37,591 nt of DNA, taken from NCBI GenBank assembly GCA_026989655.1, contig JALSIX010000147.1:1-37591 (forward strand), read 5' to 3'. Positions 4,456-9,938 of the stretch are shown here, one piece after another (position 1 is the first letter of the stretch; every line of letters starts with the position of its first letter). A program made the translations under genes and the position numbers. The notes beneath the pieces were generated by a model that was given only the letters and a program-made list of their open reading frames with translations, was not told the origin of the DNA and made no database searches. This DNA is from Caldilineaceae bacterium. Its GTDB lineage: Bacteria; Chloroflexota; Anaerolineae; Caldilineales; Caldilineaceae.

Positions 4456-5600
4456 GATGATTCCCCCGGCTACGAACAGCGCCCTGTCGGGCTGGCCGGA
4501 TTCATCCGGCGCTGTTTTCTAGCCCGGCGACTTCATCGCCGGGCGGACGTGCCCACGCCGGACACCCGCCGGGGGATGATTCCCCCGGCTACGAACAGCG
4601 CCCTGTGGGGCTAGCCGGATTCATCCGACGCTGTTCCATAGCCCGGCGACTTCATCGCCGGGCGGACGGCGCCGGGCAAACGGTGCCGATCACATCCCGT
4701 CTCATCGCCGGGCGGACGGCGTCGAAAACACCGAACGCCAGCCATCGCCCGCACCGCCGGGGGATGATTCCCCCGGCTACGAGCAGCGCCCTGCCGGGCG
4801 AGCCGGATTCATCCGGCGCTGTTTTCTAGCCCGGCGACTTCATCGCCGGGCGGACGGCTTCATCGCCGGGCGGACGGCGCCGGGCGGACGGGGCGGGCGG
4901 ACGGCGTCGAAAACACCGAACGCCAGCCATCGCCCGCCCCCGCCGGGGGATGATTCCCCCGGCTACGAACAACGCCCTGCCGGGCTAGCCGGATGCATCC
5001 GGCGCTGTTCCATAGCCCGGCGACTTCATCGCCGGGCGGACGTGCCCACGCCGGACACCCGCCGGGGGATAATTCCCCCGGCTACGAGCAGCGCCCTGTG
5101 GGGCTAGCCGGATTCATCCGGCGCTGTTCCATAGCCCGGCGACTTCATCGCCGGGCGGACGTGCCCACGCCGGACACCCGCCGGGGGATAATTCCCCCGG
5201 CTACGAGCAGCGCCCTGTGGGGCTAGCCGGATGCATCCGGCGCTGTTCCATAGCCCGGCGACTTCATCGCCGGGCGGACGACGCCGGGCGGACGGCGTCG
5301 AAAACACCGAACGCCAGCCATCGCCCGCCCCCGCCGGGGGATGATTCCCCCGGCTACGAACAGCGCCCTGTGGGGCTAGCCGGATTCATCCGGCGCTGTT
5401 CCATAGCCCGGCGACTTCATCGCCGGGCGGACGGCGCCGGGCGGACGGCGTCGAAAACACCGAACGCCAGCCATCGCCCGCCCCCGCCGGGGGATGATTC
5501 CCCCGGCTACGAACAACGCCCTGCCGGGCGAGCCGGATTCATCCGGCGCTGTGCCATAGCCCGGCGACTTCATCGCCGGGCGGACGGCGCCGGGCGGACG
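4456..5600. repeat. Tandem BIME/REP-like hairpin array, eight units
   Basis: Each unit has three palindromes in fixed order. Hairpin A has arms GCCGGGGG/CCCCCGGC; seen on the minus strand it is preceded by GTAG in all eight copies. Hairpin B has outer arms AACAGCGCC/GGCGCTGTT. Hairpin C has arms CCCGGCGA/TCGCCGGG and is preceded by TAG, mostly ATAG. Full A hairpins start at 4568, 4756, 4942, 5061, 5180, 5333 and 5486, plus a half-copy at 4456. C hairpins start at 4523, 4642, 4830, 5016, 5135, 5254, 5407 and 5560. The period is 119 bp with a short linker (CGTGCCCACGCCGGACACC) and 153-188 bp with a longer linker holding GGCGTCGAAAACACCGAACG. A and C are REP-like and inverted to each other, which is the layout of a bacterial interspersed mosaic element. 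Reading frames through the array are not genes. Confidence 0.92.
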
Positions 5601-5634
5601 GTTGCGATCTGCGATACTATCTGAGAGGTGCATC

Positions 5635-6129
5635 ATGCCTTACTGGCAACTCTTCTACCATCTGGTCTGGACCACCAAGAACCGCGACCCGCTTATCTTG
5701 CCCGACGTTGAATCCATCATTTATGATCTTCTGCGCACAAAGGCCATCGGATTAGGGGCTACAGTGTTCGCGATCGGGGGCATGCCAGACCATGTTCATG
5801 TTGTTGCCTCCATACCTCCCAAAATCGCTGTCGCCAAATTTGTGGGGCAGATCAAGGCCGTTGCGGCCACCAAATTCAATAAGATGGATTTGCCCTATGT
5901 GCTCTATTGGCAACAGGAATACGGCGCTTTTTCCTTTGACGGGAAGCGGCTACCTAACGTAATCGCTTATGTCCAGCAACAAAAAGAGCATCACGCTAAC
6001 CAGACCACGATTCCTGTCCTAGAACGGCATAAGGGCCAAACCAAATGGCTTTTGCGGGAGCCTGGTCCTGTCTATGCTGTAGATGACAAAACCTGGCGGG
6101 CAGAACTGGCTTCGCTCGTAAAGGATTGA
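5635..6129 (+). CDS. REP-associated tyrosine transposase (RAYT, Y1/HUH)
   Basis: This 164-aa protein is a Y1 transposase of the IS200/TnpA_REP group. It starts YWQLFYHLVWTTKNRDPLI. The HUH motif is HVH (residues 53-55, in MPDHVHVV), and the catalytic tyrosine is Y112 in AYVQQQKEHH, with the metal-helping Gln/His that follow it. Such enzymes nick and join single-stranded DNA at a tetranucleotide next to a REP hairpin. The ATG at 5635 is preceded by GAGAGGTG; an in-frame TTG at 5602 is less likely. The gene lies directly after eight REP-like units whose A hairpins carry GTAG, with a decayed half-unit just beyond its stop. That context points to RAYT function rather than a plain IS200 element. 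Its codons are AT-richer than its neighbours. Confidence 0.9.
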   Translation: MPYWQLFYHLVWTTKNRDPLILPDVESIIYDLLRTKAIGLGATVFAIGGMPDHVHVVASIPPKIAVAKFVGQIKAVAATKFNKMDLPYVLYWQQEYGAFSFDGKRLPNVIAYVQQQKEHHANQTTIPVLERHKGQTKWLLREPGPVYAVDDKTWRAELASLVKD

Positions 6130-9284: not shown

Positions 9285-9776
9285 CTAGCGATACTCCGCG
9301 TAGATCTCCCGGGGGCCGTTCTCGTCGAAGGCCACCACCGCAAAGGGATCCGTGGGCCAGCCCGGGGCCTCCATGCCCGGCGAGCCCACGGGCATGCCCG
9401 GCACCGCGAGGCCTACCACGTCGTCCGGCCGCTCGGCCAACAGCCGCTGCACATCCTCTGGGGGCACGTGCCCCTCGATCACGTAGCCATCCACGATGGC
9501 CGTGTGGCATGCCTGGAGCTCCGGCGGCACATGGTAACGGGCCTTCAGGGCCTCCCAGTCCGGGATGTCCCGAACCTGGGCCCGGAATCCGTTCTCCTCC
9601 ATGACCTGGATCCAGGCGCCACAGCATCCTCAGGTGGGCGATCGGTACACCGTCATGGTCAGGCCCTGGGCCTGCCCGCCACTGGCCTGCGGAGCCGACG
9701 TCCCGTCCGCTCCGCAGCCGGCCAGGAGCATGGCCACCAGCCCTACCAGGACGCCCACCGCGATGAGGCGCCGCAT
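9285..9776 (-). CDS. DUF411 lipoprotein with in-frame UGA at motif Cys
   Basis: Read through one UGA, this is a complete 163-aa DUF411 protein. It has a signal peptide with lipobox LLAGC (Cys21), a short linker, then MTVYRSPT-[UGA49]-GCCGAW. The family domain continues through ELQACHTAIVDGYVIEGHVP and GLAVPGMPVGSPGME. Family members have SPTCGCC at this place, so UGA replaces exactly the first Cys of the thiol or metal-binding motif. No other stop or frameshift occurs. The start is the second of two ATGs (9776), 7 nt after GGAGG; 9779 is possible. DUF411 proteins are periplasmic or extracellular, often near copper-handling genes; their reaction is not established. Alternatives are a nonsense mutation or a base-call error, or a start at Met59 (9602), which would lose the signal peptide and motif. 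Confidence 0.8.
9604..9632 (-). promoter_or_regulatory. UGA codon with possible bacterial SECIS stem-loop
   Basis: The UGA is at 9632-9630. On the mRNA a small stem-loop, GCCUG-GAUC-CAGGU (9617-9604), has its apical loop starting 18 nt after the UGA with G as first loop base. This fits the loose rules for bacterial SECIS elements (short upper stem, G at the start of the loop, about 16-37 nt from UGA). The stem is only five pairs, including one G-U, so this is suggestive and not proof. Confidence 0.35.
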
Positions 9777-9938
9777 CATCGGACCTCCTGTCGCGAGTGA
9801 ACCAACGGAAGGCCGGCCGATCCTGCCGGCCGCCCTGCATTGTAGCACATCCCCGCCCCACACCGGCCCCGCCAGTCGGCCAGTCCCGCAACCGGATCTC
9901 CCGCGGGGCGATTTGTCCCGCTTCGAGCCCCCATCTGG

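Follow-up and report, generated by a model that had tools for sequence, protein, structure and literature searches.

A gene of the DUF411/CopG family in the genome of a Caldilineaceae bacterium (GenBank assembly GCA_026989655.1) carries a single in-frame UGA at codon 49, which is very probably decoded as selenocysteine (Sec). The gene lies at positions 9285-9776 on the minus strand of the window, by which we mean the whole stretch of DNA that was analysed (contig JALSIX010000147.1, positions 1 to 37,591; 37,591 nucleotides), and with the UGA read through it encodes a DUF411/CopG-type protein of 163 residues with a putative lipoprotein signal. The case is built from sequence-level evidence, namely the UGA itself, its exact recurrence in homologues, the Sec machinery of the genome, the fold of the predicted protein and an RNA structure specific to the Sec form. 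As the UGA recurs in 39 homologues, the machinery is present and DUF411/CopG is absent from Table 1 of a 2026 compilation of 119 prokaryotic selenoprotein families and subfamilies (PMC13188914), Sec-DUF411 is very likely an undescribed selenoprotein family, the Sec form of CopG. A preliminary description of the window, made from the sequence alone, had proposed a possible Sec form of DUF411.

The gene and its predicted product

Of the only two stops in the frame 9776..9285, one is the TGA of codon 49 (9632-9630) and the other the final TAG; an AGGAGG ribosome-binding site (9784-9789; this and all further features of the gene are on the minus strand) stands 7 nt upstream of the ATG. The predicted N-terminus is a hydrophobic signal with a lipobox-like LAGC at codons 18-21 (9714-9725), recognised by eye; we take this to be a lipobox, and its Cys21 is unchanged across 11 aligned sequences. 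The preliminary description had read the gene in the same way, with one in-frame stop at the motif cysteine, a good ribosome-binding site and a lipoprotein signal, and these readings are borne out, the last of them by eye. It also saw a full DUF411 domain: the alignment with the CopG chain 6WIS spans residues 39-162 (E 5.7e-30), but the Pfam model (PF04214; 95.5 bits, cut-off 27, E 1.5e-27) covers residues 87-135 only (9372-9518), a segment with the CHT and EGH motifs and the two methionines of PGMP..SPGM (M128 and M135). The UGA, found in the context SPT-UGA-GCCG, opens a U-G-C-C motif (9621-9632; the Sec codon, then Gly, Cys and Cys) corresponding to the CxCC of the family, and in the alignment the CGCC of 6WIS lies opposite U-G-C-C, with its first Cys facing the UGA. 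A structure model of the protein, computed from an 11-row alignment with C put for U, had a mean predicted local distance difference test (pLDDT) score of 86.9; its five best PDB matches were all CopG chains (template modelling score 0.88-0.91 by target, 44% identity) and the first non-CopG match followed at E 0.02. NCBIfam release 20 gave no match for the window protein at E<=0.01, and of 11 members of the family two weakly matched a glutaredoxin model and one, also weakly, a murein hydrolase model.

Recurrence of the UGA in homologous genes

UGA was found at the same codon in 39 distinct homologues and Cys in 72 (hereafter Sec and Cys genes), a ratio that is not to be read as a census because the Cys set comes from the same searches and reflects a limit of 80 loci in one of them. 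The reading frame is kept past the UGA, with Cys-Cys, CHT and EGH each present in 39/39 Sec genes and both methionines in 38/39. Among 102 distinct hits to a motif pattern that allowed TAA and TAG, the codon at the UGA position was TGT in 44, TGC in 26, TGA in 32 and TAA or TAG in none; one TGA hit (L053) was a spurious antisense match, leaving 31. At the level of genomes, a protein query found DUF411 in 13 of 100 (the bacterium's own genome counted), and an alignment query run on 396 genomes of the class matched 74 (E<=0.001), 44 of them with E below 1e-18; these 44 comprise 21 with the UGA (each confirmed by position), 22 that are stop-free and one (G225) that is unsure. Within one family, the gene turned up in 23 of the 52 genomes searched, and a phylum-wide draw of 400 genomes contained seven with the gene at E<=1e-20, two of which lie outside the class and have no stop.

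The homologue check put forward in the preliminary description thus returned UGA at the same codon in close as well as distant relatives, the named carriers belonging mainly to Anaerolineae and other Chloroflexota, and besides these to two Desulfuromonadales (L069 and L077) and to one Halieaceae bin. The DUF411-UGA contig of this bin (Gammaproteobacteria; L055, JAAENL010000473.1) clusters with Chloroflexota genes in the tree and is possibly misbinned. On a 111-row tree built without the trait residue, and having few columns and many open forks, at least 8 changes between Sec and Cys labels were counted (2 of them forced by starred branches) against 32 in shuffles, so that the Sec and Cys forms of DUF411 seem to interconvert.

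These data bear directly on an alternative which the preliminary description had kept: the gene could be an ordinary Cys gene in which TGC became TGA through a nonsense mutation or a miscalled base, and so a pseudogene or an artefact. A single base does separate TGA from the usual Cys codon. For the family, however, this explanation is refuted by the recurrence, as 39 distinct genes from many assemblies have the same UGA with the frame conserved after it, which makes a base-call error at 9630 irrelevant to the family. With TAA or TAG in 0/102 hits at this codon and Sec machinery in the genome, a pseudogene or artefact is extremely improbable. Just as improbable is a programmed split gene, in which the UGA would end a 48-residue peptide and a second protein would start at an internal ATG: an open reading frame of 105 residues starting at ATG 9602 (9602..9285) does exist, but the split would separate the CxCC motif from its domain, the UGA is not swapped for TAA or TAG in the relatives examined, and Sec machinery is present.

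Decoding of the UGA

At 4.09 Mb in 150 contigs, the assembly is 99% complete. It encodes selA (582 bits), selB (325 bits) and selD (332 bits) as well as a tRNA-Sec (73.6 bits; ARAGORN anticodon tca), so that every component named for checking in the preliminary description was found. The genome's own selD carries one in-frame UGA, within ACAGUASK, followed by a hairpin (UGUCGCA-GGUCG-UGCGACA, -9.5 kcal/mol) that satisfies the published model of the selenocysteine insertion sequence (SECIS) given below. This selD (G000:C118:17962-18957, L153) also appears to terminate in TGA; with its internal UGA, TGA would then be both Sec codon and stop in one gene. In a manual list of 26 genes of the window, 18 terminate in TGA, so that there is no global change of the code, and with 9 of the 39 Sec genes ending in TGA as well, a genome-wide reassignment of UGA was ruled out.

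Cys-inserting UGA tRNAs occur in some bacteria, and the UGA might be read as a residue other than Sec, e.g. as Cys by a suppressor tRNA with a UCA anticodon. A canonical SECIS is indeed undetectable in the Sec-DUF411 genes as a group (see below), but the genome holds tRNA-Sec(TCA), SelA and SelB, its own selD has a UGA at the usual Sec site with a SECIS-type hairpin, and TGA is a common stop; we therefore consider non-Sec decoding improbable.

Comparison across genomes weighs against the Sec reading on two counts. Within the class, 18 of 23 Sec-form genomes gave a tRNA-Sec match, and such matches were as frequent (20/23) in genomes without the UGA form, the latter being 22 with a stop-free match (9 of them not inspected residue by residue) and G225; tRNA-Sec presence thus fails to separate Sec-form from other genomes and was not used as evidence for a switch. 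Moreover, tRNA-Sec was not found in 5 of these 23 Sec-form genomes, nor in 6 of the 15 Sec-form genomes reached via named records, a set in which it was found in the other 9 and in 2 of 9 Cys-form genomes and which overlaps in part with the class set. The five class-set genomes without a tRNA-Sec match are represented by assemblies that are 77-94% complete, and selD was detected in 38 of 46 genomes. An additional tRNA-Sec-like match, scoring about 53 bits and thus above the family cut-off, was seen in G055, G090 and G163, three genomes that belong to one genus and lack the UGA form, and likewise in a Sec-form genome (G431, that of locus L045).

RNA structure downstream of the UGA

Positions in the mRNA are given as columns, with the UGA starting at column 0 and column c corresponding to window position 9632-c on the minus strand, and folding energies were scored against synonymous recodings of each gene. 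A sliding scan revealed a peak confined to the Sec form at columns 48-93, with z -1.32 in 32 Sec genes and -0.22 in 71 Cys genes. At columns 45-90, the best of 19 windows in energy scans that picked no pairs, the 39 Sec genes clustered at 75% identity gave a mean z of -1.75 over 28 clusters (t -7.1) and the Chloroflexota Cys genes a mean z of 0.12 over 12 clusters. Scores below -1 at columns 48-93 were obtained for 25/39 Sec genes and 16/72 Cys genes, including 4/17 Chloroflexota Cys genes. The window gene itself reached -24.3 kcal/mol over these columns (z -2.47 against its synonymous recodings). Its predicted core hairpin, CCAGGTTCGGGACATCCCGGACTGGG, occupies columns 53-78 (9554-9579, minus strand; -14.1 kcal/mol) and is our candidate SECIS on the basis of fold and family signal; it lies within an extended stem-loop at columns 41-94 (9538-9591, minus strand), which holds the helices enriched in the family (41-44/91-94, 47-50/83-86 and 53-59/72-78). 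Fifteen enriched pairs were formed in 57% of cells in 29 Sec genes against 48% in nulls (0/500 as high) and in 44% of cells in 65 Cys genes, the remainder of the 32 Sec and 71 Cys genes having been dropped for other spacing or an N; these pairs were chosen from the same genes, so that the count is partly circular and only partly independent. Seven genes fetched later had z from -0.3 to -3.5 at columns 48-93, with 4/7 below -1. Of the two Desulfuromonadales, L077 carries the signal (z -2.45) and L069 does not.

We think it probable, from this pattern, that the distal hairpin at about columns 45-90 acts as the SECIS. Several observations count against such a role. The hairpin falls outside the published spacing of 16-37 nt for bacterial SECIS elements (bSECIS; PMC13188914). 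It is also not uniform, z being above -1 at columns 48-93 in 14/39 Sec genes and three closely related genes among those fetched later (L196, L197 and L199) showing little there; RNAalifold gave no consensus fold for columns 36-102 of the Sec genes, and the pair test was weak on the seven later-fetched genes, with 72/1000 nulls as high.

Two further regions were considered. A 3'-UTR signal was rejected, Sec and Cys genes being within error of each other. At columns 108-168 (window positions about 9464-9524) the Sec genes display a second, weaker structure signal (z about -0.7, t -4.2 and -5.3), the Chloroflexota Cys genes having z -0.53 and -0.22 and the flanking windows being less structured than the null; this may reflect common descent or be a genuine element.

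The usual SECIS position was assessed with the analysis's own implementation of the published bSECIS model, which specifies, among other things, 16-37 nt from UGA to loop, a G in the first two loop bases, a stem of 4-16 bp, a loop of 3-9 nt and -7.5 kcal/mol (PMC13188914). At this position the model fitted 5% of the 39 Sec genes (about 2) against 4% of nulls, a further point against the Sec reading, and 8% of the 72 Cys genes against 7% of their nulls. Structure in the first 63 nt after the UGA was at chance level (z -0.17), and no fixed pairs were present at columns 3-69 in 31 Sec-DUF411 genes. The stem-loop that the preliminary description had placed 13-26 nt after the UGA as a SECIS is accordingly not supported. 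SelD served as a control, using the 10 of 31 given loci that were caught by a text pattern: the model fitted 9/10 genes against 29% of nulls, and in these 10 SelD genes of the clade a hairpin recurs at a fixed place, columns 29-34 pairing with 40-45 at probabilities of up to 0.84, against about 0.1, and with z near -1.5. An Rfam search at the site returned nothing at the curated threshold, the only rows being microRNA and snoRNA entries far below theirs.

A rival for this step only would keep Sec insertion, with a weak hairpin of the canonical kind close to the UGA as the SECIS, and leave some other role, such as pausing or stability, to columns 45-90. One hairpin of the window gene formally fits the published model, having the loop GAGAACGGA, a spacing of 33 nt and -7.9 kcal/mol (z -1.06), and CCAGGUCAUGG at its columns 23-33 resembles GCAGGUCGUGC of the genome's own selD. 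However, the group-level frequencies above (5% of Sec genes, 4% of synonymous recodings, 8% of Cys genes) and the want of fixed pairs at columns 3-69 in 31 Sec genes, where they are clear in 10 SelD genes, speak against a near-UGA element, which we regard as rather unlikely.

The putative copper site and its surroundings

According to the review PMC7558416, CopG binds a tetranuclear copper cluster through CxCC and two adjacent methionines and is linked with copA and cusCBA. The ligand set is retained in the window protein as UxCC, M128 and M135, and from their conservation we infer that the two methionines would be copper ligands. Copper handling of the CopG type is thus our preferred function, and it seems fairly likely that copper is bound by the Sec of the DUF411 protein.

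The gene neighbourhood offers no support for a copper function, although linked copper-resistance genes, common with CopG, do not strictly define it. A scan of 72 of the 98 open reading frames around 15 Sec loci gave 95 Pfam families, of which the 25 most frequent include no copper family, and the 10 near neighbours of Sec loci contained no copper gene and included a MauG peroxidase, a multihaem cytochrome and a YtkA-like protein. Close to the window gene stand a helicase-like gene and an alpha/beta-hydrolase-like gene (both named by eye). Again as a rival for one step only, Sec could serve thiol-disulfide redox chemistry of the thioredoxin type or bind another metal(loid) instead of copper. 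This would suit the thioredoxin fold and the neighbours seen, namely the multihaem cytochrome and MauG and no copper gene, and most uncharacterised selenoproteins are judged in the review PMC13188914 to serve redox functions. Set against it are the CopG-like sequence and fold over the whole domain and the retention of the CxCC position and both methionines, the very residues that bind the copper cluster in CopG (PMC7558416); we consider the alternative possible, though the less probable course.

Relation to the literature

A literature search pairing DUF411 with selenoprotein found nothing. Among the matches listed, the DUF411 literature held no link to Sec and that on bacterial CopG no selenoprotein by title or abstract start, COG3019 and PF04214 did not occur, and a natural copper-selenolate site did not appear by title or abstract start. 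We know of no natural example of copper-selenolate coordination. DUF411 is not named in the passages of the deep-Sep report (PMC12013277) that were consulted.

Proposed mechanism and significance

In the mechanism that we propose, translation would start at the ATG behind AGGAGG and the lipoprotein signal would export the product. The tRNA-Sec and SelB encoded in the same genome would decode UGA codon 49, SelA and SelD would make the Sec, and decoding would most likely be directed by the downstream mRNA hairpin at about columns 45-90 (9554-9579 within 9538-9591), a structure that most Sec genes have and for which Cys genes show no enrichment. The resulting protein would have a thioredoxin fold of the CopG (DUF411) type, and its Sec49, Cys51, Cys52, Met128 and Met135 may hold copper outside the cytoplasm, Sec49 then being both a selenolate ligand of the copper and the redox residue of its site. 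In its boldest form, the proposal is that Sec bridges a multi-copper cluster, i.e. a natural copper-selenolate site, and that the SECIS is distal, with its apex some 55-70 nt downstream of the UGA, outside the published range and unlike the selD SECIS of the same cell; this conjunction we put forward tentatively, as somewhat short of probable.

Sec-DUF411 would add a selenoprotein family whose members an ordinary gene finder would call fragments or a pseudogene. Since Sec would sit where CopG is said to bind copper, biological copper-selenolate chemistry becomes testable. A distal hairpin confined to the Sec form, in a clade whose selD genes have an ordinary SECIS, offers a direct test of the limit on the distance between a bacterial SECIS and its UGA, and its position could explain why SECIS-based searches missed the Sec-DUF411 genes.

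Other features of the window

Long tandem repeats rich in GC, with periods of 119, 153 and 186 and 86-96% matches, form an array at positions 4565-5601 of the window. The array is adjoined by a short open reading frame (5602-6129) that by eye resembles a REP-associated (IS200-type) transposase.

Comparison with known systems

Like a bSECIS, the family hairpin is a coding-region stem-loop downstream of the UGA and is enriched only in the Sec form. It differs from the published element, as described in PMC13188914, in the position of its apex (about 57-68 nt past the UGA against 16-37 nt), in its loop (about 12 nt in the family helices and 4 nt in the window gene, against 3-9 nt) and in having no fixed G at the start of the loop. 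Metal handling with Sec is likewise listed in Table 1 of PMC13188914 for 2Fe-2S CopZ forms, the SO_0444 Cu/Zn efflux transporter, a mercuric transport protein and a cation ATPase, all of which belong to families other than DUF411/CopG. From CopG (6WIS/6WJE), for which linkage with copA and cusCBA is described in PMC7558416, Sec-DUF411 differs in its surroundings, no copper genes having been seen in the loci examined. The window protein has in common with CopG the whole domain, the CxCC position, the two methionines and the thioredoxin-like fold, and in place of the first Cys of CxCC it has a UGA, the predicted Sec.
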